From Hoeflea marina (GTDB taxonomy: Bacteria; Pseudomonadota; Alphaproteobacteria; Rhizobiales; Rhizobiaceae): a DNA stretch of 64,000 nucleotides. The stretch covers positions 596,130-660,129 of the forward strand of contig NZ_QGTR01000001.1 of the NCBI RefSeq assembly GCF_003182275.1, given 5' to 3'. Numbering within the stretch: position 1 is the first letter of the stretch; the number at the start of each line of letters is the position of its first letter. The translations under genes were made by a program, and so were the position numbers. The notes beneath the pieces were generated by a model. That model made no database searches. It had not been told where the DNA came from and was given only the letters and a program-made list of their open reading frames with translations. This document shows positions 6,117-30,252 of this stretch, piece after piece.

Positions 6117-7325
6117 CTACTCCGCCAGCTTCCGGTCGCGCACCGGACTGCCGTCCCTGAGCGTGTCATTGGGATAGAGCACCACCTCATCGCCCTGCTC
6201 CAGGCCGGCAATCACCTGGGCGCTTGCCGCGCCCATCTGTCCGATGTCGATCCGCGCGGTTCTGGCAACGCCGTCCCTGACGCGAAACACCGCCCAGGCG
6301 CCGCCATCGCGAAACAGCGCGCCGACCGGGATCTGCAGCGCATCGTCGGAGGACCAGACCACAAGCCTGGCAAAGACCCGGTAGCCATGGCCGAGGCCGG
6401 GCGGCACGGCGGCGGGATCGAGCAGCACATTGACCCGCTGCTCCTCGATTCCCAGCGCCGACACCCTGGTGAAAGCCGCGGGGTTTATGCGCCGCACGGT
6501 CGCCTCCAGATCGCCCGCGCCGCCCCAGTCCGAGATCTCGACCCGGGCGCCGGGCCTGATGTTGACGGCGTCGCTCGACAGCACATCGACGGTGATCTCC
6601 AGCTCCGACGGGTCGCCGACATCGGCGATGAGGGTGCCGACCGATACCGCCTGTTCGCTGCGCGCATGCACCGCCAGGACCACGCCGCTGATGGGCGAAC
6701 GGATGTTGACGCAGCAGTCGGTGCCGGAGGCGGGCGCACCGTCTGAAGGCGGCTGTGTCAGTTGTGCCTCGGCGCTGGCCAGCTCCGCCTGGCGGATGCC
6801 CACGCCGGCGCGGGCGCTGTCGACCAGCGCCTCCTGGCCCTGCCACTCGCTCATCCCGCGCTCCAGCTGGCTGTCCGATACGACGCTGTCCCTGGCCAGT
6901 TGCTCCATCCGCCGGTAGTTCGACCGCGCCAGGTCGCGCGCGTTCTCGGCGCGCTGCAGCTCGAATTGCGCCGAGGCCACCGCCGAGCGAGCCGCGGCGA
7001 TGCTCGCCTCAAGCTGGGCCCGGGTCCGGGTGTCGAGGAACGGCGATTCCAGCGGGTGAATGCGTGCGATCACCGTCCGCGGGGTGACCGGATCGCCCTC
7101 CTCCAGCGTCACCCGGTCGAGATGGCCGGCAATCGGCGAGGATACGGAATAGACATGGCGCACCCGCGCGGTCCCCTCCTCGTCGATCGTCACCTGCATC
7201 GGTCCGCGCGCGGCCGCCACCAGGTCGACCAGGACCGGCGCGGTGCGGAACGCGGCGTAGAAGCCGTAGCCGATCGCCGCCAGCAGCAGCACCGCCGCAA
7301 TAAATTTCATCCGGCTTCGGATCAT
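6117..7325 (-). CDS. HlyD/MacA-like periplasmic adaptor of an ABC exporter
   Basis: 402 aa from ATG at 7325, chosen because it lies 4 bases after the permease stop; upstream in-frame codons would run into the permease gene. The N-terminus is a membrane anchor (MKFIAAVLLLAAIGYGFYAAF), followed by the first lipoyl half (VYSVSSPIAGHLDRVTLEEGDPV), an alpha-hairpin, the second half (NIRSPISGVVLAVHARSEQAV) and beta-barrel domains. With the FtsX-type permease and ATPase just upstream it forms a three-gene operon resembling MacAB or related exporters. It would link the inner-membrane pump to an outer-membrane channel encoded elsewhere. Confidence 0.88.
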   Translation of the reverse strand: MIRSRMKFIAAVLLLAAIGYGFYAAFRTAPVLVDLVAAARGPMQVTIDEEGTARVRHVYSVSSPIAGHLDRVTLEEGDPVTPRTVIARIHPLESPFLDTRTRAQLEASIAAARSAVASAQFELQRAENARDLARSNYRRMEQLARDSVVSDSQLERGMSEWQGQEALVDSARAGVGIRQAELASAEAQLTQPPSDGAPASGTDCCVNIRSPISGVVLAVHARSEQAVSVGTLIADVGDPSELEITVDVLSSDAVNIRPGARVEISDWGGAGDLEATVRRINPAAFTRVSALGIEEQRVNVLLDPAAVPPGLGHGYRVFARLVVWSSDDALQIPVGALFRDGGAWAVFRVRDGVARTARIDIGQMGAASAQVIAGLEQGDEVVLYPNDTLRDGSPVRDRKLAE

Positions 7326-7329
7326 CGGT

Positions 7330-9695
7330 CTAGTCCCTCGTCTTGAGAACACGAATGAGGTCGAGCGTGTCGACGCGCCGCCTGACGAGCAGCGCCGAAA
7401 CGACCGCGGACCCGATCACCACCAGGCTCGCCGTGGCGTAGGTGGCCTGGCTGATGACCAGCGGAATGCGGAAGAGATCGCTCTCGAATCCGCGGATCAT
7501 CAGCACCGCAAACCCGTATCCGGCGAGCCAGCCGAGCGGCTGGGCGATGATGACGATCAGCGCCAGTTCCACCAGCAGCACGCTGGAGACCTCCGCGCGG
7601 GTGAAGCCGAAGACCCGGAGGCTGGCCAGCTCCCGCGCCCGCTCGGACAGCTGGATGCGGGCCGAATTGTAGATCACCCCGAAGGTGATGATGATCGCAA
7701 GCGTCACATAGATGGTGATGCTGTAGGAGATGTTCTGCCGGACGGTCTCGCGAAACCGGTCGCGCGAGACGGTCTGCAGCGCCAGCGAGGCGATCGCCGG
7801 CACCTGCTTGATGTGCGCATAGAGCTCGTCGAGCCGGTCCTCGTCGACCAGGATGCGGGCTCCGGACACCCGGCGTCCCTCCATCAGCAGCCGGTTGAGC
7901 GCCGTCAGTTCCATGTAGGCCGCGAGCCCCACATAGCTTTCGGCAATGCCGGTCACCGGCACGGAAACCTTTCGGTCGGCAAATTCCATCAGTTCGATCT
8001 CGACAGGGTCGCCGATCTGGAGATCCAGGAGGGCAGCGACCCGCTCCGACAGCACCAGGCCGGAGCTTGGCGGCTGCATGGGAAGCAGGTCCCTGTCGAG
8101 GACGCGCGACAGCTCGGACTGCTGCGTCAGGCCGTGGATCACCATGCGCCGCTCGTGTCGGCCGTTCTTCAGCTTGACCGCGGTCGAGCGATAGGGTTCG
8201 ACCCGGATCACCCCGGGCAGGTCGCCGACACGGGTGACGGCCTCCGGCCCGGATGCGCTGGCGAAGGTCAGCGTCGCGTCCTGGCGGTCGGCGCGAAAGA
8301 AGATCGTGTCGATCATCGCGTCGATGGAATCGAACGAGAACAGCGCCGTGACCAGCAGCGCGACCGACAGCGCGGTACCGATGATGGTCATTGTCGACCG
8401 CAGCGGCCAGCGCAGGAAATGCCGGAAGACCATCACGGTGAGTTGCGAAAACAGCGGATTGGTCGGGACGGCGGCGCCGGCAAGGCTGCGGTACTGCGTC
8501 GGGCTCGGCGGCCGCATGGCGACGGCCGGCGGCAGCATCACCGTGGCCCAGATCGCGCTCGAGGCGCCGGCAAGCGCGGCCGCCACGGTCACCGTGGCGG
8601 CGATGGCGTAGAGATCGATGCCATGGGTGAAGATCAGGAACGGGAACGCGAAGAACTCGCCGTAGAGCCGCGTCAGGCCGCGACCGAGCCAGCTTCCCGC
8701 GACACATCCGATCGCGAGGCCGACGGCGGAAATGACGATCACCAGCTTGGCGTAGTGCCAGCCGACGGCAAGGTCCGTGTAGCCCACCGCCTTCAGCAGG
8801 CCGATCTGTTCGCGTTCGAGCGCGATCAGGCGGGACAGGATCATGTTGACGAGGAAGGCGGACACGAACAGGAAGATCGGCGGAATGATCGTCGCCATGG
8901 CGAACAGCTGCGTCAGTTCGGAATCCAGGAATGCATGCGACATCTGGTCCTTGCGCCCGTAGGCGCCGGTGCCGCCATAGGGCGCAAGAAGGCCGTCGAG
9001 CCCTTCGATCACCGCCCTGGTGTCGGCATTGCGCATCGTCGTCAGCGCCGCATCGTTGAAGGCCCCCTCCATCCCGAAGGCCGAGGACAGCACGGTTTCC
9101 GACATGTACAGGATGCCGTAGCGCCGCGGATCCGGCACCATGTCGCCCGGGCCGATGGCATAGATGAATTCCGGCGACAGCACGATGCCGGTGATCGAAA
9201 GCCGCCGCGCCTTGCCGTTCATCACCACGTCGAACCGGTCGCCGGGGCGAAATCCGTGCGCGGCCGCGAACGCCTCCACCACCGCGACCTCGCCCGGCAC
9301 CCGGCTCCCTGGAAGCCGCCCTGCCCGGAGGTAGAGACGGTTGACGGCGCTCTCGCCCGTGTCGGGAATCGACACCACCACGCCGCTGGCCGGCTCGGTC
9401 ATGCCGGTGATGGTGATGATGACCGGCTTGACGATGCGGAGTTCGGCAGCCGATACGCCGGGCAGGCTTTGAATGCGCGGTTCCAGATGCCGCGGCGCCC
9501 GCACGGCTTCGGCGAAGACCGAAGCGAAGCGATAGCGGTCGTAGAAGGCGCTCTGGCTCGCCTCCAGCGAGCGGCTGGCGCCCATGGCGAGGATCAGGGT
9601 CATGACGCCGCACGCCATCACCAGCGCGACCGCCAGCGCCTGGGCCCAGAGCCGTCCGAGATCGCGCAGCAGTTTCCGGTCGAGCATCCGCATGG

Positions 9696-9702
<7 letters not shown>
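7330..9702 (-). CDS. ABC transporter permease, FtsX/MacB-type, two FtsX domains
   Basis: 790 aa. The N-terminal membrane helix ([24 protein letters not shown]) is followed by a large periplasmic domain, a first FtsX bundle (about 265-385), a second periplasmic domain and a second FtsX bundle at the C-terminus ([21 protein letters not shown]...). This is the duplicated-permease layout seen in lipoprotein- or lipid-handling ABC systems and in DevC/YknZ-like exporters. The GTG at 9702 follows GGAGG by four bases; an ATG at 9693 is the alternative. The start overlaps the end of the ATPase gene by 7 bases, so the operon is tightly coupled. Confidence 0.9.
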
Positions 9703-10421
<719 letters not shown>

Positions 10422-10499
10422 GGCGCGGACGCTACCACCTGGCCGGGCAATCGCATTGATCTTCATCAAGGCCGGATCCGTCCAGGCGGGCGGCGGTCG

Positions 10500-12390: not shown

Positions 12391-12405
12391 GCAAGTTCCG
12401 TGCCA
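12391..12405 (-). promoter_or_regulatory. Sigma-54 (RpoN) -24/-12 promoter for the MFS transporter
   Basis: On the minus strand the sequence reads TGGCACGGAACTTGC, an almost exact match to the RpoN consensus TGGCACG-N4-TTGC, with GG and GC separated by exactly 10 bases. The -12 GC is at 12391-12392 and the -24 GG at 12403-12404, which puts the transcript start near 12380, about 115 bases before the MFS start codon. An RpoN activator with a GAFTGA loop is encoded 3.5 kb away. Confidence 0.9.
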
Positions 12406-12476
12406 GAACGCCGCGTTCGAAAGCCCTTGGTTTGATTGGCGTAAAATGGATTGGTCGCCGCAGTCGCATCTGGCCG

Positions 12477-12512
12477 CGGGACAGAAAGTCCCGGTACCGA
12501 CAAAAAGTCCCG
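12477..12512. promoter_or_regulatory. Two phased palindromic enhancer sites (putative UAS) for the NtrC-type activator
   Basis: Site 1, CGGGACAGAAAGTCCCG (12477-12493), is a perfect 6-5-6 inverted repeat. Site 2, ACCGACAAAAAGTCCCG (12496-12512), has the same A-rich centre and right half with a weaker left half. Their centres are 19 bp apart, nearly two helical turns, and they lie about 73-108 bp upstream of the -24 element. This is the classic placement of tandem NtrC/DctD-type activator sites. Confidence 0.78.
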
Positions 12513-12542: not shown

Positions 12543-14561
12543 TCAGCCGGCCTCGGGCAGCCAGATGCTGAACCGCGTGCCCTCGCCGATGACGCTGTGC
12601 GCGGAGATGGTTCCGCCATGCCGCGAGACCAGCATGTGGGTGATGGACAGTCCGAGACCGGTTCCCGCGCCGCGCTTGGTGGTGAAGAACGGATCGAAGA
12701 TGCGGTCGAGGATCATCGGATCGATGCCGCTGCCTGTATCGCTCACATCGATGCGGACGCCCGGGGCTGCGTCCCGCTCCTCGTCCGAGCTGGCCAGTGT
12801 CAGCTTTCCGCCCTCAGGCATCGCGTGGATGGCATTGACCATAAGGTTGACCAGCACCTGCTGCAGTTCGGTGCGATTCATGGCTGCGTGCCGGCTGGCC
12901 CTGTCGTGGCGCTCGACCGCGATCTCGTTGGTGCGCAGCATGTGCCGCACCAGCGGCAGGCAGTCGGAGATGACGTCGCCGGGCAGGCTGTCGGCGGTGG
13001 TGCCCGAATATTCCTCGGGCCGCGCGAATTGCAAAAGCCGCGTGACGATCTGGGTCATGCGCTCGGTCTGTTCGTCGATCAGCCTGAGTTCCGTATCGGC
13101 CTCGCCCGCCCTTTCCCCCATGATGGCGCGCAACACCTCCAGATTTCCCTGGATGACGGCAATCGGGTTGTTGATCTCGTGTGCCACGCCGGCGGTGATC
13201 TCGCCGATGGCCGCGAGTTTCTCCGCCATCACCAGCTGCTTGGTCATCGCCTCGAGGCGGCGGTTGGTCTCCTGCAGTTCGCGGGTGCGGATGTCGACGC
13301 GGCTGTTGAGCTCCTCGTTCCAGTCCCGCAGCTCGCGGTCGCGCGCCTGCAGCCGGTCGAGCAGGCCGTCGAGATGGGCCGCCACGCGGCTGATCTCGTC
13401 GCCGACATCGCTGATGGAGGTCCGGGCGCCGAGATTGCCCGCCTCCACCAGCGTGATGGTGTCGGCCATCTTCTCGAGCGGCTTGAAGATCGAGCGCGCC
13501 CATTGCAGGAACAGCGGCACGCTCGCAAGCGTGACCACGAAGAAGGCGGCCAGGATCGCCACCACGCTGGCGATCTTGGAGCGGGCGAACGGTGTTTCCA
13601 GAAAGCCGACATAGAGCATGCCGACGCGCTTGCCGAAGCTGTCGACGATCGGTTCATAGGCGGAGATGTACCAGTCGTTGACGACGAAGGCGCGGTCGAG
13701 CCAGACCTCGCCCTGTTCAAGAACCAGCCGCCTCACCGCGGCCGACACCCGTGTGCCGAGCGCCCGCCTGCCCTCGAACAGGCGGACATTGGTGCTGATG
13801 CGGACGTCGTCGAGGAACAGCGTCGCCGTCCCCTGGCTGCCTTCGGGCAGGCTCGCCTCGCGGTAGACAAGGTCGTTGATGGTGTCGATGAACTCGAGAT
13901 TGCGGTTGAGCAGGATGCCACCCGCCAGAATGCCGCGGCCCTCGTCGGCCAGACCGACCGAACTGGCCGAATGCACCACCATGCCCGATGTGCTCTGCGA
14001 GGCTTCGGTCGGAACGGCATTGGGCGTGGCGATCAGGTCGATCTTCGCCCGCTGCGCCAGCGCGGGCGAGAAGCTGGCCAGCAGCTCCGCCGGAAAGATG
14101 TCGATGGCGGTGCTGGTGCTGCCGCTGACGGCGTCGGCGAGAACCGGCCAGCTCATGTCGACGCGCTCGGGCGCGCCCGGCTCGGCCCGGGCGATGACGC
14201 GGCCGGTGGAATCGGCGATGTAGAGAAAATCGAGCGACAGCGCGGTGCGGGCCTCGCTGAGCAGTGTCTGGAGACTGGCTTGCGTCTGGCCTTCGCCGGC
14301 CACCGCGTCCCGGAATTCGGCGGAGCGGCCGAGCGCGGTCAGGTGTTCGCCGGTGTTTTCGAGAATGCGGCTGAGATACTGGTGCGCGATCGTCAGGTCG
14401 CCATTGACCTTGGACACCAGCACGGCGTCGAACTTGGCGTTCCAGCGCACCATGGTGACGCCGAGCAGGATCGGCAGGATCACCAGCGTCGGCAGCAGCG
14501 CGATGGCGAGCAGCCGGTAGCGGATCGACCGCGTCGGCCGGGCCTGCCTTGCATCGGGCAT
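12543..14561 (-). CDS. DctB-like sensor histidine kinase with periplasmic Cache-type domain
   Basis: 672 aa from ATG at 14561, 19 bases after the regulator's stop. TM1 is at about residues 18-38, a large periplasmic region of Cache type spans about 40-325, and TM2 is about 330-352, followed by HAMP, a coiled coil, and the HisKA domain with the phosphorylated His461 in GVAHEINNPIAVIQ. The N box (NLMVNAIHAM), G1 (DTGSGI), F box (FDPFFTTK) and G2 (GTGLGLSI) are intact. The architecture matches kinases that sense C2-C4 carboxylates outside the cell. It is co-transcribed after the sigma-54 activator and sits next to a carboxylate-type MFS gene with an RpoN promoter. Confidence 0.9.
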   Translation of the reverse strand: MPDARQARPTRSIRYRLLAIALLPTLVILPILLGVTMVRWNAKFDAVLVSKVNGDLTIAHQYLSRILENTGEHLTALGRSAEFRDAVAGEGQTQASLQTLLSEARTALSLDFLYIADSTGRVIARAEPGAPERVDMSWPVLADAVSGSTSTAIDIFPAELLASFSPALAQRAKIDLIATPNAVPTEASQSTSGMVVHSASSVGLADEGRGILAGGILLNRNLEFIDTINDLVYREASLPEGSQGTATLFLDDVRISTNVRLFEGRRALGTRVSAAVRRLVLEQGEVWLDRAFVVNDWYISAYEPIVDSFGKRVGMLYVGFLETPFARSKIASVVAILAAFFVVTLASVPLFLQWARSIFKPLEKMADTITLVEAGNLGARTSISDVGDEISRVAAHLDGLLDRLQARDRELRDWNEELNSRVDIRTRELQETNRRLEAMTKQLVMAEKLAAIGEITAGVAHEINNPIAVIQGNLEVLRAIMGERAGEADTELRLIDEQTERMTQIVTRLLQFARPEEYSGTTADSLPGDVISDCLPLVRHMLRTNEIAVERHDRASRHAAMNRTELQQVLVNLMVNAIHAMPEGGKLTLASSDEERDAAPGVRIDVSDTGSGIDPMILDRIFDPFFTTKRGAGTGLGLSITHMLVSRHGGTISAHSVIGEGTRFSIWLPEAG

Positions 14562-14580
14562 CACCGCGGCTCGATCCGCA

Positions 14581-15969
14581 TCACGAACCCCAGGCGGCAA
14601 GCTTGCGTTCGATGGTCTTGCGCGACACGCCGAGCACCCGGGCTGCCTCCGACCGGTTGCCGCCGACGGCCTCGAGCACATCGAGAATGTGGCGCCGTTC
14701 GATGTCCTCAAGCGTCTCGCCGTGGGTTAGCTTCGGGGCCGGCTGGTCGGAAAGGGTCTTTGGAAACTGGCCCAGAATCAGCGAGCGCTCGACCAGGTTG
14801 CGCAGTTCGCGCACATTGCCGGGCCAGGAATAGGCGAGGAATTCCCGCCGCACCGCATCGGTCAGCGGCACCGGGGGCATGCCGATCTGCGATGACAGCT
14901 TGGAGATGAACAGCTCCGCCAGTTCGATGACATCCTCGCCGCGATCCCTCAGCGGCGGCATGTCGATGCGCATGACATTGATGCGGTAGAACAGGTCGGG
15001 CCGGAATCTGCCTTCGGCCATGCGCTGTTCGAGGTCCGCATTGGTGGCGAAGATGAAGCGCAGGTCGACCGATGCCTCGCGCTCGGAGCCGACCGGCCGC
15101 ACCTTGCGCTCTTCCAGCGCGCGCAGCAGCTTGCTCTGGGTCGCCATCGGCAATTCGCCGATCTCGTCGAGGAACAGCGTCCCGCCCTGGGCATGCATGA
15201 ACAGGCCGTCACGCGCGCCCTGCGCGCCGGTGAAGGCGCCCTTGACGTGGCCGAACAGCTCCGCCTCGATCATCTCCTGCGGGATTGCGGCGCAGTTGAC
15301 CGGCACGAAGGACTTGCCGGCCCGGTCCGAGAGGGTGTGGATGGACCGCGCGGTGACCTCCTTGCCGGTGCCGGATTCGCCGCAGATGAGCACGGACGTC
15401 GGCAGCGGCGCCACCCGGGCGATCATCTCGCGCAATTGAACGATGATGGCCGAATGCCCGATCATCCGGTCGCGCAGCAGAATGTGCTCGGAGGCGGCCA
15501 TCAGTTCGTGGCGCAGCACGTAGTTTTCGCGCTGCAGCTTCCGGCGGTCGAGGCAGCGGGCGATGGCGTTGAGAATCTGGTTGGAACGAAACGGCTTGAG
15601 CACGAAATCCACGGCACCCGCGCGCAGCGCCTGGATGGCGGTCTCGAGATCTGCATAGGCGGTCATCAGGATCGCGTCGGAAAAGAAGCCGATGGCGCGC
15701 TGCTCGGCAAGCCAGTCGACACCGTTCTTCCCCGGCATGACGTTGTCGAGGATCACCACGTCGTAATGGCGGGCATCGAGCATGGCGGACGCCGCCTTGA
15801 CGTCGGCGGCCTCGTCGATCGACTTGACCCGCGGGCCGATGGTGCGCATCAGGAAGTTGCGTATGCCCGGCTCGTCGTCGACGATCAGGATCGACGCGCG
15901 CGAAAGCAGTGGGCCGAATTCCGCATCATCGCTCTCGGCTGTCGCCAGCCTTGCCGTGTTCTGCGTCAT
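14581..15969 (-). CDS. Sigma-54-dependent NtrC/DctD-family response regulator
   Basis: 462 aa from ATG at 15969, chosen for GGAGG five bases upstream. The receiver domain spans about 25-140 with phosphoacceptor Asp75 in VILDNVMPG and the conserved DD at 31-32. The AAA+ domain has Walker A GESGTGKE (about 197-204), the sigma-54 contact loop GAFTGA at 244-249, and Walker B LFLDEIG. The C-terminal Fis-type HTH (GNRSEAARVLGVSRKTIERKL) should bind DNA. It is the first gene of a two-gene operon with the kinase. The promoter and twin palindromes in front of the MFS gene are its most likely target. Confidence 0.93.
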   Translation of the reverse strand: MTQNTARLATAESDDAEFGPLLSRASILIVDDEPGIRNFLMRTIGPRVKSIDEAADVKAASAMLDARHYDVVILDNVMPGKNGVDWLAEQRAIGFFSDAILMTAYADLETAIQALRAGAVDFVLKPFRSNQILNAIARCLDRRKLQRENYVLRHELMAASEHILLRDRMIGHSAIIVQLREMIARVAPLPTSVLICGESGTGKEVTARSIHTLSDRAGKSFVPVNCAAIPQEMIEAELFGHVKGAFTGAQGARDGLFMHAQGGTLFLDEIGELPMATQSKLLRALEERKVRPVGSEREASVDLRFIFATNADLEQRMAEGRFRPDLFYRINVMRIDMPPLRDRGEDVIELAELFISKLSSQIGMPPVPLTDAVRREFLAYSWPGNVRELRNLVERSLILGQFPKTLSDQPAPKLTHGETLEDIERRHILDVLEAVGGNRSEAARVLGVSRKTIERKLAAWGS

Positions 15970-16185
15970 GCATCCTCCGTCGGGGTCTCCCGGCAGACCT
16001 CTGGTCCACATCCCCGCGCCGCCGACCTTGCCCGCTTAAGCGCCAACAGGCAACCGCCGCGATTCAACAATGGATGGTCCCACCCTCACGCGCGCCCTCC
16101 GCAGGACGAGTCCCGCGATCCGGAGGGTCCGGCTGCGCAGCCGGCCGGAAAGGGCCGATCCGTCTGGCGGCCTCGGGCCGCGCCC

Positions 16186-18660: not shown

Positions 18661-18870
18661 CTGCCCACCCGCCGTGCCGGAGGCGGCCAGGTCAAAGAAC
18701 CTGTCCTCGGCATGAGCATGTCCTCGGCGGCAAAGCCAGCCATTGCCAGAACCATCGGCAGGATGCCGCGCACCACGAAGGCTGATCCGATCCGCTGGTG
18801 TTGGAAATGCGGCGCGCAACGGACGCGTGGCGTCCCTGCCCAATTTGCCTGACCTGGGAACCTTTTCATG
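18661..18870 (-). pseudogene. Relic of the 5' end and leader of a second DMT transporter gene
   Basis: This stretch is clearly homologous to about 16990-17190, the start and leader of the intact DMT gene, in the same orientation. Conserved pieces include the codons for ILxMVLAMAGFAAEDM and, in another frame, DLAASGxxxGQ. A short internal duplication containing CTGTCCTCGGC breaks the frame near 18701-18730, and the ATG codons are lost (one is now GTG). Homology continues through the former leader to about 18870. Only the first ~35 codons survive; the rest of the gene is absent. It ends next to a block of repeats before lrgA. Confidence 0.78.
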
Positions 18871-18924
18871 GCTGGGGATTGGGGAATATGCTGGCGGTTT
18901 GATATCCGGGGCGGATCCCGGCCG

Positions 18925-19110
18925 TCGCCCCCTCCGCCGGCTGCGCCGGCACCTCCCCGGTTCGGGGGAGGAAACCGCAAATCGGCCCCAGCTCGGGGGA
19001 GGAACGTCCCGGCGCCGGGATCACCGGCGGGTTTTCGCTCCCCGTCCGGGGTGTCCGCAGGACGGGCGAGACCCGTGGCTCGCCCCGTGGGGCGCAGCGC
19101 CGGGTGGGGT
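18925..19110. repeat. Block of palindromic intergenic repeats (CTCCCCC / GCCGGC type)
   Basis: Several perfect hairpins lie side by side: GCCGGC-TGC-GCCGGC at 18936-18950, CCTCCCC pairing with GGGGAGG at about 18952-18971, and CCCGTCC with GGACGGG at about 19041-19067. The first two have the same order and layout as the elements at 36511-36643 and inside pdhC (pyrimidine-rich hairpin, then a variable GCC-type hairpin, then a CCCTC end), so they belong to one family. Together with the DMT relic they fill the 600-base gap between the transpeptidase and lrgA; I see no gene there. Confidence 0.65.
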
Positions 19111-19215
19111 GCATTTGGTTATAGGGAAATGAACAGGGCGATCTGCCGCCATCTCGCCATCGCGGCAGAAACCGCCGATAGTGCGCCCTGCCCGCAACTT
19201 GCAGAAGGCCCACTC

Positions 19216-21932: not shown

Positions 21933-22166
21933 TCACCCCGCGCTCGCCAGCTTCTCCGGCCGCCTTATGTCCTTTAGCGCCGCCACAACCATCGGCTTGA
22001 AACCCTCGGTGCTCTCGTCGGCGATTTCGAACAATTGCGTGCGCATGCGCGGGTCCCAGAACTTGTTGATGTGGTCGGCCACGCCTTCAACCTGTTCCTG
22101 CTCCGGCTGGGATGCGAAGAAGGTGGCAATCTGGTTGGCCTGGTACCGCAGCTTGTCAGGCGACAT
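21933..22166 (-). CDS. fdsD: NAD-dependent formate dehydrogenase, delta subunit
   Basis: 77 aa from ATG at 22166, which has GGAG nine bases upstream; an ATG at 22181 lacks such a site. The sequence KLRYQANQIATFFASQP...VADHINKFWDPRMR is the FdsD signature. FdsD is a small protein needed for maturation or stability of the soluble FdsABG formate dehydrogenase. It overlaps the end of fdhD by 11 bases and is the last gene of the fds operon. Its 3' end is partly copied at 21090. Confidence 0.9.
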   Translation of the reverse strand: MSPDKLRYQANQIATFFASQPEQEQVEGVADHINKFWDPRMRTQLFEIADESTEGFKPMVVAALKDIRRPEKLASAG

Positions 22167-22998
22167 CGCTCTCAACTCCATGTGTTGTCCGGCCCGATGT
22201 TATCCGGTCGGGCCGTGTGAAAATCTCGAAATCCTCGCCGCGCGCAATGGCAATCAGCGTCAGGCCTGCGGCTTCCGCGGTGCGCACCGACAGCGCGGTC
22301 GGCGTGGAGACGGCGATCAGCACCGGGCTGCCCGCGATCACCGTCTTCTGCACCATGTCGACGGAGACCCGGCTGGTAATGACGATGGCGCCGCCGGCGG
22401 TGTTTTGGCCGGCGCGGGCGAGCCCGCCGATCAGCTTGTCGAGCGCATTGTGACGGCCGACATCCTCGCGGACCATCACCATGCCCTCGCCCGGCCGGTA
22501 GAAGCCCGCGGCATGCACGGCGCCGGTTTCGGCGCGCAGCTTCTGGCCCGCGCCGAGACTGCCAAGGGCCGCGCGGATATCGCCGGCGGTAAATTGCGCC
22601 TCGAGCGCCGAACGTTCGGGCAACTGCCGCAGCGCCTCGTCGATGGATTCAATCCCGCACAGTCCGCACCCCACCGGCCCCGCCATCCGCCTGCGCCGGG
22701 CGGCGAGCGCCGCCTGTCGGCTGTCGGCAAGCTGCATCTGCACGTCATAGCCCTCGCCCGCCTCGACGATCTCGATCGCCTCGATGTCGGCGCCGCTGCC
22801 GGCAATCGCCTCGGTCAGCGCGAAGCCATAGCCGAAATCGAGAAGATCGTCAGGCGTCGCCATCATCACCGCCTGCGTGGTGCCGCCAAAACTCAGCGCC
22901 ACCGGCGCCTCCTCCGGCAAGGTGCGCTCGCCCGAAGCCCGCACACCGCCGCGCACGGCAAGCCGGGCGACGGTGGCGCGAGTCTGGCGGGCGGTCAC
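22156..22998 (-). CDS. fdhD: FdhD sulfurtransferase for formate dehydrogenase maturation
   Basis: 280 aa from GTG at 22998, eight bases after the fdsA stop with AGGG just upstream; an ATG at 23067 would overlap fdsA by 62 bases. It carries the CXXC loop in GPVGCGLCGIESIDEAL and the conserved VREDVGRHNALDKLIG and ITSRVSVDMVQKTVIAG segments. FdhD passes sulfur from a cysteine desulfurase to the molybdenum cofactor, which formate dehydrogenases need for activity. Located between fdsA and fdsD, it is coupled to its client enzyme. Confidence 0.92.
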   Translation of the reverse strand: MTARQTRATVARLAVRGGVRASGERTLPEEAPVALSFGGTTQAVMMATPDDLLDFGYGFALTEAIAGSGADIEAIEIVEAGEGYDVQMQLADSRQAALAARRRRMAGPVGCGLCGIESIDEALRQLPERSALEAQFTAGDIRAALGSLGAGQKLRAETGAVHAAGFYRPGEGMVMVREDVGRHNALDKLIGGLARAGQNTAGGAIVITSRVSVDMVQKTVIAGSPVLIAVSTPTALSVRTAEAAGLTLIAIARGEDFEIFTRPDRITSGRTTHGVESDVA

Positions 22999-23005
22999 GG
23001 ACGCC

Positions 23006-25888
23006 CTATTCCGCAGGCTCGAGCGCCGGCTCGGCAATGCGGCGGGACTGAGCTGCCTGCGCATCATACTCCACCTGCCAGGCGGTCGGACCGTTCGACG
23101 GGCTCACCTGCACCGCCGTCACCTTGTATTCCGGGCAGTTGGTCGCCCAGTCGGTGAAGTCGGTGGTGATCACGTTGGCCTGGGTGCCGGGATGGTGGAA
23201 CGTCGTGTAGACCACGCCCGGCGACACCCGCTCGGTCAGCTTGGCGCGCAGCGAGGTCTCGCCCGAGCGGCTCGCCAGCTTGACGAAATCGCCGTCATGG
23301 ATGCCGCGCTGCTCGGCGTCGTGCGGGTGAATCTCCAGGAGATCCTCCGCATGCCAGGCGACGTTTTCGGTGCGCCGGGTCTGGGCGCCGACATTGTACT
23401 GGCTCAGAATCCGGCCGGTGGTGAGCAGCAGCGGGAAGCGCGGTCCGGTGCGCTCGTCGGTGGCCACATATTCGGTGCGGATGAACTTGCCCTTGCCGCG
23501 GGCAAAACCGCCCAGATGCATGACCGGCGTGCCTTCCGGCGCCTTCTCGTTGCAGGGCCACTGCACCGAGCCCATCTTCTCCAAGAGATCGTAGGAGACA
23601 TTGGTGAAGCTCGGCGTGGTGGCGGCGATCTCGTCCATGATCTGCGACGGGTGGCTGTAATCCCAGCCGAGCCCCATCGCCTCGGCGATGCCGAGCGTGA
23701 CTTCCCAGTCGCCGAGACCGTTCTTCGGCGTCATCACCTTTCGCACCCGGTTGATCCGGCGCTCGGCATTGGTGAACGTGCCGTCCTTTTCCAGGAAGGT
23801 CGAACCCGGCAGGAAGACATGGGCGTAATTGGCGGTCTCGTTCAGGAACAGGTCATGGACGACGACGCATTCCATCGCCGCCAGACCCGCCTGGACATGG
23901 TGGGTGTCGGGATCGGACTGAAGAATGTCCTCGCCCTGGATGTAGATGCCGCGGAACGTGCCCTCGACGGCGGCGTCTAGCATGTTGGGGATGCGCAGCC
24001 CGGGTTCCGAATTGAGCTCGACGCCCCAGAGCTTCTCGAAGATGTCGCGGGTTTCCTCGCCCGAGATATGCCGGTAGCCGGGAAGCTCGTGCGGGAACGA
24101 GCCCATGTCGCAGGCGCCCTGCACATTGTTCTGGCCGCGCAGCGGATTGACGCCGACGCCCGGCTTGCCGAGATTGCCGGTGGCCATGGCCAGATTGGCG
24201 ATCGCCATCACCGTGGTTGAGCCCTGGCTGTGCTCGGTGACGCCGAGGCCGTAATAGATGGCGCCGTTGCCGCCACGGGCATAAAGCCGCGCAGCACCGC
24301 GCAACTCGGCAGCGGGAACGCCGGTATAGGCCTCGGTGGCCTCCGGGCTATGGGCCGGATCGGAGACGAAGGACGCCCAGTCCTCGAATTCCGACCAGTC
24401 GCAGCGCTCGCGGATGAAGGCCTCGTCAAAGATGCCTTCGGTGACGATCACATGGGCCAGCGCGGTGAGAACAGCGACATTGGTGCCCGGGCGCAGCGGC
24501 AGGTGATGCGACGCCTGGATATGCGGGGTCTTGACCATGTCGATGCGGCGCGGATCGATGACGATCAGCTTGGCGCCTTCACGCAGCCGCTTCTTGAGCC
24601 GCGAGGCGAACACAGGATGGCCGTCGGTCGGGTTGGCGCCGATGAGGATGACCACGTCGGTGTGCTCGACACTGTCAAAATCCTGGGTACCGGCCGAGGT
24701 GCCGAACGCCTTGCCGAGGCCGTAGCCGGTCGGCGAATGGCAGACGCGGGCGCAGGTGTCGACATTGTTGTTGCCGAAGCCGGCACGCACCAGCTTCTGC
24801 ACCAGGAAGGTTTCCTCATTGGTGCAGCGCGACGAAGTGATGCCGCCGACGGCGCCGCGGCCATACTGGAACTGGATGCGCTTGAATTCCTTGGCCACAT
24901 GGGCGAAGGCCTCTTCCCAGGTCACTTCCTGCCAGGGATCGGTGATGTTCTCGCGGATCATCGGGTTGAGGATCCGGTCCTTGTGGTTGGTGTAGCCCCA
25001 GGCGAAGCGGCCCTTGACGCAGGAATGGCCGCGGTTGGCCTTGCCGTCCTTCCACGGCACCATGCGGACGACTTCTTCGCCGCGCATTTCCGCCTTGAAG
25101 GAACAGCCGACGCCGCAATAGGCGCAGGTGGTGACGACGGAATGTTCCGGCTGGCCGATGTCGATGACCGACTTCTCCTGCAGCGTCGCCGTTGGGCAGG
25201 CCTGCACGCAGGCGCCGCAGGAGACGCATTCGGAGTTCATGAAGCTCTCGTGCATGCCGGGCGAGACGCGGCTGCCAAAGCCCCTGCCCTCGATGGTCAG
25301 CGCGAAGGTGCCCTGCACTTCCTCGCAGGCGCGCACGCAGCGCGAACAGACGATGCACTTGGCCGGGTCATAGGTGAAATACGGATTGCTCTCGTCCTTC
25401 GGCATGTAGCGGGCGTTCAGCTCGCCGCCCTGGCGCGCCACCACGTGGTTGTCGCCTTCGTAGCCGTAGCGAACATCGCGCAGGCCGACGGCGCCGGCCA
25501 TGTCCTGCAGCTCGCAGTCGCCATTGGCGGCACAGGTCAGGCAATCGAGCGGATGGTCGGAGATGTAGAGCTCCATCACGCCGCGGCGGATGTCCTTGAG
25601 CCGTCCGGTCTGGGTGTGGACCACCATGCCTTCCGCCACCGGGGTGGTGCAGGAGGACGGGGTGCCGCGGCGTCCTTCGATTTCCACCAGGCAGAGCCGG
25701 CAGGAGCCGAAGGCGTCGACCATGTCGGTGGCGCAGAGTTTCGGAATGGCAATGCCCGCCTCCATCGAGGCGCGCATGATCGAGGTGCCCTCGGGCACCG
25801 TGACCCTATTGCCGTCGACGATCAGGCTGACGGTCTTCTCCGCCTTGGAGACCGGGGTGCCGTAGTCGATTTCCTGGATAAGAGCCAT
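23006..25888 (-). CDS. fdsA: NAD-dependent formate dehydrogenase, catalytic alpha subunit
   Basis: 960 aa from ATG at 25888, five bases after the fdsB stop. The N-terminal 2Fe-2S domain (Cys52, 63, 66, 80) is followed by a His-Cys 4Fe-4S site (around DHPLDCLTCAANGDC, 111-125), two 4Fe-4S ferredoxin motifs (CIVCSRCVRAC, CVSCGACVQAC) and a further cluster at CAYCGVGC (255-262). The bis-MGD domain follows, with catalytic Cys383 in DTCARVCHSPTGYG, so this is the Cys rather than selenocysteine form. It oxidises formate to CO2 in the cytoplasm and passes electrons through the clusters to FdsB. Confidence 0.96.
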   Translation of the reverse strand: MALIQEIDYGTPVSKAEKTVSLIVDGNRVTVPEGTSIMRASMEAGIAIPKLCATDMVDAFGSCRLCLVEIEGRRGTPSSCTTPVAEGMVVHTQTGRLKDIRRGVMELYISDHPLDCLTCAANGDCELQDMAGAVGLRDVRYGYEGDNHVVARQGGELNARYMPKDESNPYFTYDPAKCIVCSRCVRACEEVQGTFALTIEGRGFGSRVSPGMHESFMNSECVSCGACVQACPTATLQEKSVIDIGQPEHSVVTTCAYCGVGCSFKAEMRGEEVVRMVPWKDGKANRGHSCVKGRFAWGYTNHKDRILNPMIRENITDPWQEVTWEEAFAHVAKEFKRIQFQYGRGAVGGITSSRCTNEETFLVQKLVRAGFGNNNVDTCARVCHSPTGYGLGKAFGTSAGTQDFDSVEHTDVVILIGANPTDGHPVFASRLKKRLREGAKLIVIDPRRIDMVKTPHIQASHHLPLRPGTNVAVLTALAHVIVTEGIFDEAFIRERCDWSEFEDWASFVSDPAHSPEATEAYTGVPAAELRGAARLYARGGNGAIYYGLGVTEHSQGSTTVMAIANLAMATGNLGKPGVGVNPLRGQNNVQGACDMGSFPHELPGYRHISGEETRDIFEKLWGVELNSEPGLRIPNMLDAAVEGTFRGIYIQGEDILQSDPDTHHVQAGLAAMECVVVHDLFLNETANYAHVFLPGSTFLEKDGTFTNAERRINRVRKVMTPKNGLGDWEVTLGIAEAMGLGWDYSHPSQIMDEIAATTPSFTNVSYDLLEKMGSVQWPCNEKAPEGTPVMHLGGFARGKGKFIRTEYVATDERTGPRFPLLLTTGRILSQYNVGAQTRRTENVAWHAEDLLEIHPHDAEQRGIHDGDFVKLASRSGETSLRAKLTERVSPGVVYTTFHHPGTQANVITTDFTDWATNCPEYKVTAVQVSPSNGPTAWQVEYDAQAAQSRRIAEPALEPAE

Positions 25889-25893
25889 GGTGC

Positions 25894-27450
25894 CTACTCC
25901 GCTGCCTGGGACATGGGAACCGGACGAAAGTCCTCCGGGAAGTGATTGATGGCGCTCATCACCGGATAGGGTGTGAAGCCGCCCAGCGCGCAGAGCGAGC
26001 CGAACTTCATCGTGTTGCAGAGGTCGGTGAGCAGCGCGAGCTGCTTCTCCGGCTCCTCGCCGCGACGGATCTTGTCGGCCACCTCGACGCCGCGGGTCGA
26101 GCCGATGCGGCAGGGCGTGCACTTGCCGCAGCTTTCGATGGCGCAGAACTCCATGGCGAAGCGCGCCTGGTCGAGCATGTCGACGCTGTCGTCGAAGACG
26201 ACGATGCCGGCGTGCCCGATGAGGCCGTCGCGGGCGGCGAACTCCTCGTAGTCGAACGGAGTGTCAAACAGCGCGCGCGGGAAATAGGCGCCGAGCGGAC
26301 CGCCCACCTGCACCGCCTTGACCGGCTGGCCGGTAATGGTGCCGCCGGCGACATCATCGACCAGTTCGCCCAGCGTCATGCCGAAGGCCGCCTCGAACAG
26401 GCCGCCATGCCTGGCGTTGCCGGCGATCTGGATCGGGATCGTGCCGCGTGAGCGGCCCATGCCGAAATCCTTGTAGAAGGCGGCGCCCTTTTCCATGATC
26501 ACCGGCACCGAGGCGAGCGAGATCACATTGTTGATCACCGTCGGGCGGCCGAGGAAGCCCTTGTGGGCGGGCAGCGGCGGCTTGGCGCGGACGATGCCGC
26601 GGCGGCCCTCGAGGCTTTCCAGAAGTGCAGTTTCCTCGCCGCAGACATAGGCGCCGGCGCCGACCCGCACTTCCATGTCGAACGCATGACCTGAATTGAG
26701 AACAGACACGCCGAGAACGTTGTTCTTGCGCGCAATTTCGATGGCCGAGTTCATCGCCGCAATGGCGTGGGGATATTCAGAACGCGTGTAGACATAGCCC
26801 TTGGTCGCACCGGTGGCGATGCCGGCGATCACCATGCCTTCGATCAGCACGAAGGGGTCGCCCTCCATGATCATGCGGTCGGCGAATGTACCGGAGTCGC
26901 CTTCGTCGGCATTGCAGACGATGTATTTCTGCGCGCCTTGCGCATCAAGAACCGTCTTCCACTTGATGCCGGTGGGGAAGCCCGCGCCGCCGCGTCCGCG
27001 CAGGCCGGAGTCGGTCACCTGGGTGACGATGTCGAGCGGCGTCATGGCGATCGCCTGCTCGAGACCCTTGAGGCCGCCATGGGCGCGATAGTCCTCGAGC
27101 GACAGCGGATCGGTGATGCCGCAGCGGGCGAAGGTCAGCCGCGTCTGCCGCTTGAGGAAATCGATCTCCTCGGTCAGGCCGAGATTGAGCGCGTGGGAGC
27201 CGCCATCGGTCAGGCCGGCGTCAAGCAGGCCCGGCACATCGGACGATTTTACCGGCCCGTAGGCGACGCGGCCCTTTTCCGTTTCCACCTCGACCATCGG
27301 CTCGAGCCAGAACATGCCGCGCGAGCCGTTGCGGACGATCTCGATGTCGAGCCCGCGCTTGGCGGCTTCGCTCACCAATGCGCCGGCCACCTTGTCGGCG
27401 CCGACCGCGAGGGCGCCGGCATCGCCGGGAACGAAAATCCTGATGCTCAT
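25894..27450 (-). CDS. fdsB: NAD-dependent formate dehydrogenase, beta subunit (NuoF-like)
   Basis: 518 aa. An N-terminal thioredoxin-like ferredoxin domain (about 1-90) precedes the NuoF core: NADH-binding GLRGRGGAGFPTGIKW, FMN-binding NADEGDSGTFADR, and the 4Fe-4S site ESCGKCTPCRIG near the C-terminus. It binds FMN and NAD and hands electrons from FdsA to NAD+. It overlaps fdsG by four bases (ATGA) and fdsA starts five bases after it, so the three are made in step. Confidence 0.96.
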   Translation of the reverse strand: MSIRIFVPGDAGALAVGADKVAGALVSEAAKRGLDIEIVRNGSRGMFWLEPMVEVETEKGRVAYGPVKSSDVPGLLDAGLTDGGSHALNLGLTEEIDFLKRQTRLTFARCGITDPLSLEDYRAHGGLKGLEQAIAMTPLDIVTQVTDSGLRGRGGAGFPTGIKWKTVLDAQGAQKYIVCNADEGDSGTFADRMIMEGDPFVLIEGMVIAGIATGATKGYVYTRSEYPHAIAAMNSAIEIARKNNVLGVSVLNSGHAFDMEVRVGAGAYVCGEETALLESLEGRRGIVRAKPPLPAHKGFLGRPTVINNVISLASVPVIMEKGAAFYKDFGMGRSRGTIPIQIAGNARHGGLFEAAFGMTLGELVDDVAGGTITGQPVKAVQVGGPLGAYFPRALFDTPFDYEEFAARDGLIGHAGIVVFDDSVDMLDQARFAMEFCAIESCGKCTPCRIGSTRGVEVADKIRRGEEPEKQLALLTDLCNTMKFGSLCALGGFTPYPVMSAINHFPEDFRPVPMSQAAE

Positions 27451-27926
27451 GCGTTCACTCCCCGGGCGATCTCGGCGATGGCGTCATGATCGAGACGGCC
27501 TATCACTTCGCCGTCGACCATGGCCGACGGCGCGCAGGCGCACAGCCCAAGGCAATAGACAGGCTCGATGGTGACGGCGCCGTCGGCGCGGGTCTGGTGC
27601 CAGTCGAGACCCAGCAGCGCCAGCAGCTTTTCGGCAAGCTCCTCGCCGCCCATCGACTGGCAGGCCTCGGCCCGGCACACCTTGATGACGTGGCGGCCGG
27701 CGGGTTCCTGGCGGTAATCGTGGTAAAAGCTGACGACGCCGTGAACCTCGGCGCGCGACAGATTGAGCCCGTCGGCGATCGCCGGCAGCGCCGCGGTCGG
27801 CACATAGCCGAACTCGTCCTGGATCGAATGGAGGATCGGCAACAGCGGCCCTTCGAGCGCCCTGTGGCCCTCAACAATGGCGCCGGCGCGCGACGCGATG
27901 TCCGCGTCAGCCGTTCGGTTCAGCAT
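27447..27926 (-). CDS. fdsG: NAD-dependent formate dehydrogenase, gamma subunit (NuoE-like)
   Basis: 159 aa from ATG at 27926, chosen for GGGAGGA seven bases upstream. It has the NuoE thioredoxin-like fold with four 2Fe-2S ligands: Cys in VCRAEACQSMGG and in YCLGLCACAP. First gene of fdsGBA-fdhD-fdsD. The 90-base gap in front of it holds a LysR-type operator that overlaps the stop of the lysR gene. Confidence 0.94.
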   Translation of the reverse strand: MLNRTADADIASRAGAIVEGHRALEGPLLPILHSIQDEFGYVPTAALPAIADGLNLSRAEVHGVVSFYHDYRQEPAGRHVIKVCRAEACQSMGGEELAEKLLALLGLDWHQTRADGAVTIEPVYCLGLCACAPSAMVDGEVIGRLDHDAIAEIARGVNA

Positions 27927-28003
27927 CGACAATCCTCCCAATCATCACAACTGCCACAATTTCAGGCATTTCAGTCGAAAATCAATAGCGCATATTCGTC
28001 GGC

Positions 28004-28022
28004 CGATAGGGAATCTCTATCG
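28004..28022 (-). promoter_or_regulatory. Putative LysR-type operator of the fds operon
   Basis: A perfect 6-7-6 palindrome, CGATAGGGAATCTCTATCG, contains a T-N11-A core (ATAG-N7-CTAT), the usual LysR recognition form. It sits 78-96 bases upstream of the fdsG start and overlaps the lysR stop codon. A weaker AATA-N5-TATT repeat lies nearer the gene (about 27984-27996) and could be the activation half-site. The promoter itself is not obvious. Confidence 0.65.
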
Positions 28023-28913
28023 AGGGTTCATGTCACGGGCAAAGATCCGTGCCTCGTGCAGCAGTGCCGAAACGATCGGGGTGTGCGGCTCCCGCGGCGC
28101 GGCGACCATCCCCACCATGTGATGGGCATCCGGCTCGACGATCGGAATGCCGCGGATTTCGGGCGCAAGGCCGAAGGTCTCGGCCAGATGCAGCGGCATG
28201 ATCGAGGCCCATTTGCCCGTCCGCACATGGGAGAACAGCACGGTCACCGAGTTGGATTCGAGCGTCGGCTTGGCGGCCGCGCCGGCTTCGGCGAGATGCT
28301 GGTTGATGATGCGGCGGTTCTGCATGTCGGGCGTGAGCAGGCACAGCGGCAGTTTGGCGACCTCGGCCCAGGTCACCGTCTCGCGGTCGGCGAGCATCTG
28401 GCCGGCGGTGGTGAACAATTGATACCGCTCCTCGTAGAGCGGCACCGAAACGACGCGGCCGGTGGGCTCATTCTCCAGATAGGTGATGCCGGCATCGATC
28501 TCGAGGTTCTCGAGCTGGAACAACACCTCGTTCGACGTGCAGGACATGATCGACAGCGTGACAGCCGGGTGCTTCTCGGAGAACGCCGCCGTCATCGCCG
28601 TAACTTTTGACAGTGCGGTGGGGATGACGGCAAGCCGCGCATGACCGGACAGTCCCTTGCGCGCCGCCTTCATCTCCTCGCGCATCGTGCGGGCGTCGCC
28701 GACGATGCGCCGGGCCCATTCCAGCACCCGCTGGCCTTCCGGGGTGAGCGCCTGGAAGCGGGAGCCGCGCTGCACCAGCACCACGCCGAGCTGGTCCTCG
28801 AGCTGCTTGAGCCCCGCCGACAGCGTCGGCTGGGTGATGCCCAGTTCGGTGGCGGCACGGCCGAAATGCCGTTCGCGGGCGAGTGCCATGAAATATTCGA
28901 GCTTGTCGATCAT
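28017..28913 (-). CDS. LysR-family transcriptional regulator, probable regulator of formate dehydrogenase
   Basis: 298 aa from ATG at 28913, with GAGG seven bases upstream. The N-terminal winged HTH (EYFMALARERHFGRAATELGITQPTLSAGLKQLEDQLG) is standard, followed by a two-lobed ligand-binding domain (about 90-295). It lies immediately upstream of and in the same direction as fdsG, and a LysR box sits between them, so fds control is the most likely job (in Cupriavidus an FdsR LysR protein does this). It is also divergent from kynureninase across 124 bases, so control of kynU cannot be excluded. Confidence 0.87.
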   Translation of the reverse strand: MIDKLEYFMALARERHFGRAATELGITQPTLSAGLKQLEDQLGVVLVQRGSRFQALTPEGQRVLEWARRIVGDARTMREEMKAARKGLSGHARLAVIPTALSKVTAMTAAFSEKHPAVTLSIMSCTSNEVLFQLENLEIDAGITYLENEPTGRVVSVPLYEERYQLFTTAGQMLADRETVTWAEVAKLPLCLLTPDMQNRRIINQHLAEAGAAAKPTLESNSVTVLFSHVRTGKWASIMPLHLAETFGLAPEIRGIPIVEPDAHHMVGMVAAPREPHTPIVSALLHEARIFARDMNPR

Positions 28914-29037
28914 GCAGGAGCCTCGCACGACGCCGGGCAAGCGGCAAGACCGGCAGCGACACCGCCAGCGCGGGTTGCGGCACCGGTCTGCCGAGGCTAC
29001 CAATGCCGTCCGTCCCGCCGCCCGCCAGGAGAGAACC

Positions 29038-30252
29038 ATGCCCACGCCCACCGATGACGATGCGCTGTTTGCCGGCACCAGGGCCATGTTCGCGCTGCCC
29101 GATGGCGTCATCTATCTCGACGGCAACTCGCTGGGGCCCCTGCCGTCCAACGTCGCCGCGCGGGTCGCCCGCACGGTCCAGGCGGAATGGGGCGCGATGC
29201 TGATCCGCGCATGGAATGACGCCGGGTGGATGGATCTCAGCGGCAAGGTCGGAGATCGCATCGGCCGGCTGATCGGCGCGGCCGCCGGAACCGTCATGGT
29301 GGCAGACACGACATCAATCAATCTTTTCAAGGTTCTGGACGCAGCGATTCATCTCAACTCAGAACGTTCGGTGGTGCTTTCGGACACCGGCAACTTCCCC
29401 ACCGATCTCTACATCGCTCAGGGGCTGACCGCACGCCTGCCCGGCCGCCGGATGCTCAGGACCGTGGCGCCGGAGGACGTCATGGCCGCGATCGACGACA
29501 CCGTCGCCGTGGTCATGCTGACCGAGGTCGATTACCGGACGGGTCGCCGTCACGACATGAGGGCGATCACCGGCGCCGCGCACGATGCCGGCGCGCTGGT
29601 GATATGGGACCTCGCCCATTCAGCCGGAGCGCTCGAAGTGGACCTCGCCGGCACCGGGGTCGATTTCGCCGTCGGCTGCGGCTACAAGTACCTCAATGGC
29701 GGTCCGGGCGCGCCGGCCTTCGTCTATGTGGCGCCGCGACACCAGGACGGAATCGCGCCGCTCCTGTCGGGCTGGATCGGCCACGCCGCGCCCTTCGCCT
29801 TCGATCCCGACTATCGCCCCGCCCCGGGCATCGACCGGATGCGTGTGGGAACGCCACCGGTGCTGTCGCTGGAGGCGCTGGACGCGGCGCTCGATGTCTG
29901 GGACGGCATCGACTTGGCGCGTGTCCGCGCCCGCTCGATTCTGCTCACCGAACTGTTCATCGCGGAAGTTGAGGCCGCCTGCCCGGCGCTGACGCTCGCC
30001 TCGCCGCGCGATGCGCAGGCCCGCGGCAGCCAGGTGTCGTTCCGGCACGAGGAAGGGTTTGCCATCATGCAGGCGCTGGTCGCCCGCGGCGTGATCGGAG
30101 ATTTCCGGGCGCCCGACGTGCTGCGCTTCGGCTTCGCACCGCTTTATGTCCGGCCCGAGGATGTGAAAAGCGCGGCGGCGATCCTGGCGGAGGTGATGGA
30201 CGGCAGGCTCTGGGACCGGTCGGAATACCGGCTGCGCGGCCGGGTCACCTGA
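29038..30252 (+). CDS. kynU: Kynureninase
   Basis: 404 aa from ATG at 29038, preceded by AGGAGA. It is a fold-type I PLP enzyme of kynureninase length. Visible motifs are YLDGNSLGPLPSNVAARV near the N-terminus, the substrate-helix DTGNFPTDLYIAQG, the cofactor Asp in WDLAHSAGALEVDL, and the PLP lysine in CGYKYLNGGPGAPAF. It hydrolyses kynurenine (and 3-hydroxykynurenine) to anthranilates plus alanine in tryptophan breakdown. No kynA or kynB gene is adjacent. Divergent from the LysR gene; an AGACCGG/CCGGTCT inverted repeat lies in the shared upstream region. Confidence 0.93.
   Translation: MPTPTDDDALFAGTRAMFALPDGVIYLDGNSLGPLPSNVAARVARTVQAEWGAMLIRAWNDAGWMDLSGKVGDRIGRLIGAAAGTVMVADTTSINLFKVLDAAIHLNSERSVVLSDTGNFPTDLYIAQGLTARLPGRRMLRTVAPEDVMAAIDDTVAVVMLTEVDYRTGRRHDMRAITGAAHDAGALVIWDLAHSAGALEVDLAGTGVDFAVGCGYKYLNGGPGAPAFVYVAPRHQDGIAPLLSGWIGHAAPFAFDPDYRPAPGIDRMRVGTPPVLSLEALDAALDVWDGIDLARVRARSILLTELFIAEVEAACPALTLASPRDAQARGSQVSFRHEEGFAIMQALVARGVIGDFRAPDVLRFGFAPLYVRPEDVKSAAAILAEVMDGRLWDRSEYRLRGRVT

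Follow-up and report, generated by a model that had tools for sequence, protein, structure and literature searches.

Within the 64,000-nucleotide stretch of Hoeflea marina DNA analysed here (the window), a sigma-54 promoter and two palindromes stand upstream of a gene for a major facilitator superfamily (MFS) transporter. We read this region, at a probability of about three in four, as controlling a formate-uptake module of DctBD-DctA-like design. Regulator, kinase, control region and transporter all lie on the minus strand, with the control region between the kinase gene and the transporter gene, and the regulator–kinase pair upstream of the palindromes (Table 1). An earlier note on this DNA had proposed a carboxylate-sensing module analogous to DctBD-DctA; gene set, tandem sites and conservation support the core of that reading, which is here refined to formate.

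A sigma-54 promoter and two predicted operators precede the transporter gene

The near-consensus RpoN promoter with a GG-N10-GC core recognized by the earlier note is borne out, and it is the single 11-of-11 match to TGGCACG-N4-TTGC within the 64 kb. Promoter-like sites at up to two mismatches are not enriched in the window (19, against a mean of 31 in shuffles); as loose matches are no commoner than in shuffles, the promoter by itself is weak proof. One sigma-54 (RpoN) is encoded by the Hoeflea genome.

Both the palindrome coordinates and the distance of 19 bp between centres (12485 and 12504) were correctly given before. Their description as twin phased palindromes holds for the number of sites. 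The distal palindrome is imperfect, its right arm reading GTCGGT, and 19 bp amounts to ~1.8 helical turns, so that "phased" fits the window operators approximately at best. Taking transcription to start ~12 bases past the GC element of the sigma-54 promoter, the operators are positioned near -106 (proximal) and -125 (distal).

Genome-wide (5.26 Mb), the proximal operator is the one exact occurrence of CGGGAC-N5-GTCCCG, and the window pair the one exact occurrence of the tandem pattern GGAC-N5-GTC-N7-GGAC-N5-GTC. At up to two mismatches neither is enriched genome-wide, with 476 matches versus 751 in the reversed control for the former, and 27 and 31 versus 35 and 37 in reversed controls for the latter. 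A looser search of the same genome for one operator followed by a sigma-54 motif returned four places including the window site, and none in the control. We further built an operator matrix on 44 unique sites drawn from 30 related loci, with the two Hoeflea-titled loci excluded. Of all positions in the 64 kb, this matrix ranks the distal operator first and the proximal operator second; the summed score of the window pair is 20.4, compared with 9.8 for the runner-up pair and a maximum of 12.8 over 20 block shuffles. The comparative matrix is a strong test that the predicted operators exceed chance. That the palindromes arose by chance or serve another regulator is extremely unlikely: the GC-rich genome has many looser matches and the distal copy departs from symmetry, but conservation, the uniqueness of the exact tandem pair in the genome, and the coupling of the sites to the presence of the regulator and to its GAFT loop (see below) argue against it.

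Table 1 Features of the predicted control region and of the genes around it in the window
Feature	Position	Strand	Basis
Sigma-54 promoter TGGCACGGAACTTGC	12405-12391	minus	GG-N10-GC in TGGCAC-N5-TTGC context; 11/11 scored positions
Proximal operator CGGGACTTTCTGTCCCG	12493-12477	minus	Predicted; centre 12485
Distal operator CGGGACTTTTTGTCGGT	12512-12496	minus	Predicted; centre 12504
MFS transporter, 569 aa	10556..12265	minus	Pfam MFS_1; NCBIfam NF049980, 327.6 vs cut-off 320
Sensor histidine kinase ORF	12543..14711	minus	Pfam sCache_3_3, HAMP, HisKA, HATPase_c; start likely near 14561
NtrC-type response regulator	14581..16011	minus	Pfam Response_reg, Sigma54_activat, HTH_8; GAFTGA; Fis-type HTH
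fdhD, formate dehydrogenase accessory sulfurtransferase	22156..23067	minus	TIGR00129, 180.4 vs 140.9; NF001943 under cut-off
fdsA, formate dehydrogenase alpha subunit ORF (start not fixed)	23006..26122	minus	TIGR01591, 957.4 vs 666.25; own-genome search
fdsB, NuoF-like formate dehydrogenase subunit	25894..27450	minus	78% identity to fdsB-like ORF of L131; between fdsG and fdsA; NuoF models all under their cut-offs
fdsG, formate dehydrogenase gamma subunit	27447..27941	minus	NCBIfam NF004638, 240.6 vs cut-off 198
LysR-type regulator ahead of fds genes	28017..29111	minus	67% identity to LysR-like ORF beside fds in L129; LysR-type models under their cut-offs

Operator and promoter travel with the regulator

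Orthologues of the regulator (E <= 1e-115) are present in 44 of 397 genomes drawn from the larger order, the own genome included. Loci were fetched from the 43 other orthologue genomes, and four more came from a separate search. A transporter relative is found in 38 of these 47 loci, of a long kind in 20 (70–91% identity to the transporter of the window) and of a short kind in 18 (37–43%, reaching 54% over a segment). A second set came from named genomes scanned for the transporter, of whose 361 relatives the best 80 were used; the closest named relative among them is Hoeflea alexandrii (91%). These 80 loci were sorted by the adjacent regulator into group A (close, 34), group B (distant, 14) and group C (none in the locus, 29), three truncated loci being set aside. 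At least four genomes are counted in both sets (L078/L128, L082/L132, L088/L141, L083/L183). One long-kind transporter (L203) sits on a metagenome-bin contig titled Klebsiella pneumoniae, a doubtful label.

Searching for the trio and aligning upstream palindromes, as the earlier note proposed, yields an exact GGAC-N5-GTCC in the 450 bp preceding the transporter gene in 27/34 loci with a close regulator (group A), compared with 1/14 in group B and 1/29 in group C (best 80 of 361). A sigma-54 site (score of at least 9 of 11, a threshold of our choosing, with GG and GC required for groups A–C) occurs in 26/34, 13/14 and 2/29 of the same loci, respectively. Upstream regions of group A, again from the best 80 of 361, hold 44 exact GGAC-N5-GTCC copies in 15.3 kb versus 10 in the remaining 512 kb. 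The sole group C locus with an operator (L145, best 80 of 361) comes from a genome that encodes a 71% identical regulator elsewhere. Of 16 group C genomes searched for the regulator, 12 lack any match at E <= 1e-95; three others harbor distant regulators (49–54%) and no exact operator. Presence of operator and promoter therefore tracks the close regulator, across the groups and in the group C genomes searched, indicating that both travel with it.

Operator pairs, defined by a score of 6 or more at each site, were identified in 74 of 87 loci (the window, 38 fetched, 34 of group A and 14 of group B, the latter two from the best 80 of 361): in 35/39 of the window and fetched loci, in 5/14 of group B and in 34/34 of group A, whose scores are partly circular as the matrix was trained on this group. 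The predicted operator family GGACA-N3-TGTCC is real. Centres of the paired sites are 19 bp (n = 9), 22–24 bp (n = 9), 31–32 bp (n = 6) or 41–45 bp (n = 50) apart, groups A and B again representing the best 80 of 361, and no distance of 25–30 or 33–40 bp occurs among the 74 loci with pairs. From this distribution, operator separations of roughly two, three or four helical turns seem to be tolerated. Because periodicity is similar at 10.5 bp (R 0.77) and at 11 and 11.5 bp (both 0.80) and the loci are related, we claim spacing clusters and no measured period. A hidden middle operator in pairs 40–46 bp apart was considered and rejected, with no midpoint peak in 50 loci.

At the level of whole genomes, the exact tandem pair is present in 19 of 48 genomes that encode the regulator, versus 2 of 48 for the reversed control. 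In 15 of the 19 the pair is located at the regulator locus or next to it, and in G034, G097, G133 and G142 only elsewhere. The pair of G034 (G034:C2:113841-113880; L234 5842-5881) is located far from the regulator locus, with no sigma-54 site near. A stricter pattern, GGACA-N3-TGTC followed by TGGC-N7-TTGC, which misses the window operator (GGACT), is found at 27 places in 23 of the 48 genomes, and its reversed control at none in 48; in 24 of the 27 cases the regulator gene is no more than about 12 kb away. The predicted circuit is usually private to its own neighbourhood.

Loss of the GAFT loop coincides with absence of the sigma-54 site

Loci containing both regulator and transporter number 86 (some from the best 80 of 361), of which 71 encode GAFTGA, four GAFTNA or GAFTSA, and 11 (L116-L124, L178, L106) a regulator without GAFT loop, the motif being changed to GAFPGA, GAFLGA or GALP, or the loop gone. 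Sigma-54 sites scoring at least 9, here with GG alone required, precede 70/75 GAFT[GNS]A loci versus 0/11 GAFT-less loci (some from the best 80 of 361; Fisher p 1.8e-10, relatedness ignored). Nine of the 11 GAFT-less loci keep an operator pair at 42–43 bp; L118 and L121 have lower scores. rpoN was found in 12/12 GAFT-less genomes searched, and its continued presence indicates a change specific to this regulator. On the tree, the GAFT state changes three times, with one supported independent pair (two when all branches are counted). As independent losses are few, the correlation between GAFT loop and sigma-54 site is suggestive, not statistical.

Excerpts of PMC10274813 describe NtrC proteins of Rhodobacter capsulatus and Caulobacter that lack GAFTGA and act on sigma-70 promoters. 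GAFT-less members of the present family may act likewise on sigma-70 promoters, whereas the window regulator retains GAFTGA. A clade of GAFT-less regulators with a kinase is additionally found in loci L102, L103, L105, L107 and L108, where no transporter relative, no exact operator and no sigma-54 site scoring at least 10 was detected; in L103, an EamA transporter is encoded by the next gene.

Sensor residues point to formate

Pfam domains and motif positions confirm that the neighboring genes encode a GAFTGA activator and a Cache-type kinase, as the earlier note had it. The regulator comprises a receiver, an AAA+ domain with GAFTGA and a Fis-type helix-turn-helix, the parts of an NtrC-type activator. 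For kinase residues 61–480, structure prediction yielded a model with a pLDDT of 82.6. The best solved sequence relatives of the sensor are the formate-bound 8py1 and 8py0, at a weak E of about 0.003; comparison of folds alone gives similar scores for many Cache domains. The R-x2-T-x12-T triad of formate-bound receptors is present in 82/82 close sensors, in the window as R304, T307 and T320 (ORF numbering) in the membrane-proximal module of the double Cache. None of the 14 group B sensors (best 80 of 361) has the exact spacing.

In PacF, R142, T145 and T158 affect formate binding, according to excerpts of PMC12501870, and the same spacing, that of the formate-binding Cache_3 residues, is found in the window sensor. 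The excerpts place the PacF formate site in the membrane-distal module, unlike the window triad. The Cache_3 formate receptors 8py0, 8py1, PacF, Atu0526 and McpF are chemotaxis receptors, whereas the window protein is a histidine kinase with a double Cache, whose triad sits in the membrane-proximal module. The residue pattern of the sensor points to formate rather than to a C4-dicarboxylate.

The transporter resembles monocarboxylate carriers

The transporter had been placed in the oxalate/formate (OFA) family. Its MFS_1 assignment stands, but it falls short of the OFA cut-off (TIGR00890, 177.6 vs 374.85). SfMCT (6g9x) and OxlT (8hpj) are its closest solved relatives, with which it shares the carboxylate-site Asn and Arg. 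N359 and R363 align with OxlT N268 and R272, and W454 takes the place of OxlT K355. Across 119/119 transporters, the window included, N268 and R272 are kept and K355 is replaced by Trp. Some 60 residues (about 175–235), a feature of the long kind, fall outside the alignment with SfMCT.

Oxalate sensing coupled to oxalate:formate antiport is very unlikely. OxlT is the second-best solved relative of the transporter (5.8e-18), but it misses the cut-off of the OxlT equivalog model TIGR04259 (130.1 vs 335), and the second oxalate-binding residue, Lys355, is Trp throughout. K355Q is inactive and K355R reduced in OxlT, as excerpts of PMC10070484 report.

Sensing and import of lactate or pyruvate may be considered instead, given that NF049980, the equivalog model of SfMCT (an L-lactate MFS transporter), is the sole NCBIfam model whose cut-off is passed, and that SfMCT, by alignment, likewise has a neutral residue at the OxlT Lys355 position. 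The margin is thin, however, and the short-kind transporter of the same circuit in L085 scores 311.5 and misses it. Formate dehydrogenase genes recur beside the module, and the closest solved relatives of the sensor bind formate, which makes this alternative unlikely; rather than to the L-lactate transport implied by NF049980 membership, gene context points to formate. The transporter is likely a formate importer.

Formate dehydrogenase genes often accompany the module

The fdsGBA genes of the window are located ~10 kb from the transporter gene. Among the best 80 of 361, fdsB is present in 28/34 group A and 15/29 group C loci; it is absent from the other 14 of group C and from all 14 of group B, two of them short, and also from 20/38 fetched trio loci. 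Six trio genomes were searched for FdsA. Two gave no close match; G034 has none at E <= 1e-100, and the best match of G253 reaches 39%. In G011 (Hoeflea alexandrii), FdsA and the trio are on different contigs. Direct control of the fds genes of the window by the operator was rejected, as neither an operator at up to one mismatch nor a sigma-54 site scoring at least 9 lies on their strand; direct control of the dehydrogenase is thus not supported here. Two ORFs resembling an LrgA-LrgB pair by eye lie between regulator and fds genes (18868-20293). The same strand carries, immediately downstream of the transporter gene, an ABC adaptor, permease and ATPase of LolD/MacB-type appearance, most models being under cut-off (6117-10469).

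Operators are also found before other genes. G252 and G123 encode the regulator pair, but their fetched loci contain no transporter relative. Operator and sigma-54 site precede the DnaK region, fdhE and a bestrophin gene in G252 (L264, L265), targets that adjoin fdhD, cytochrome bd and an FdhF/YdeP-like gene, and they precede DnaK and ClpB in G123 (L235, L267), where an operator pair additionally lies ahead of a molybdopterin oxidoreductase adjoining cytochrome bd. In G097, operator and sigma-54 site lead into genes for an AMP-binding enzyme, branched-chain amino acid ABC-like genes (by eye) and the regulator–kinase pair, with the fds genes on the opposite strand. Labels such as the ABC transporter in G097, LrgAB, Hsp20-like and FdhF/YdeP-like in G123 were assigned by eye or similarity. 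Formate-related genes recur even at these other operator targets.

The chaperone, fdhE and bestrophin targets of the two genomes without an adjacent transporter would suit a weak-acid or envelope stress switch, with formate as the stress cue and a transporter whose main role is to export or balance the acid. We regard this as decidedly unlikely, because the frequent neighbor of the transporter, in the group A loci counted above, is the formate dehydrogenase operon, which points to formate use.

Proximity of fdsGBA-fdhD, the Trp at the OxlT Lys355 position, the formate-bound relatives of the sensor and its triad together make formate the most likely signal. Comparison across genomes shows the operator, the promoter, the gene set, the residue patterns and their co-occurrence; we infer ligand, direction of signalling, transport and DNA binding as follows. 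The kinase would sense formate outside the inner membrane through its membrane-proximal double-Cache module (R304, T307, T320) and phosphorylate its partner, the NtrC-type regulator. The phosphorylated regulator would bind the two GGACA-N3-TGTCC-type operators, centred ~106 and ~125 bp before the start, and would use its GAFTGA loop to activate sigma-54 RNA polymerase at 12405-12391. The monocarboxylate MFS transporter would thereby be switched on, and formate would be imported for the FdsGBA formate dehydrogenase.

Discussion

DctB-DctD-DctA is a C4-dicarboxylate uptake system. The window module is reminiscent of it in that a Cache-type kinase gene adjoins those of regulator and transporter, and in a promoter with tandem upstream sites. 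It differs in its transporter, which is of the MFS_1 and not the DctA type, in its predicted operator, GGACA-N3-TGTCC, and in its ligand, most likely formate. A DctBD-DctA-like mode of working would thus be known in kind, with a different transporter class and operator and, most likely, a different signal. FhlA of E. coli is a formate regulator that reads formate inside the cell by itself. Like FhlA, the window regulator is a sigma-54 activator linked to formate metabolism, but in the present system external formate would be read by a membrane kinase. A sigma-54 regulon survey (PMC12316311) predicts that formate dehydrogenases in general are under such control; in excerpts of it, neither an activator nor an operator, a sensor or an MFS transporter is named.

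In literature searches that covered mostly non-subscription papers, we found none containing GGACAAAATGTCC, GGACATTTTGTCC or the three written consensus forms, and, among the matches listed, no sigma-54 two-component system that senses formate to control an MFS transporter. Nor did we find, among those matches, a description of formate import being switched on by a membrane kinase in response to external formate.

On balance, we lean towards a wider reading, namely that Proteobacteria harbor a widespread and undescribed family of formate-sensing two-component systems, in which a double-Cache kinase would read external formate and an NtrC-type regulator would act via GGACA-N3-TGTCC pairs about two, three or four turns apart. 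At least one large branch would have lost both the sigma-54 contact of the regulator and the sigma-54 site of the promoter with the operator kept, and elsewhere the operator would have been recruited to chaperone and formate-dehydrogenase-like genes. Loss of the GAFT loop with a mostly kept operator amounts to a natural experiment, making a change from sigma-54 to another promoter type testable within one orthologous circuit. The operator itself offers a ready handle for finding regulons and for building formate biosensors.
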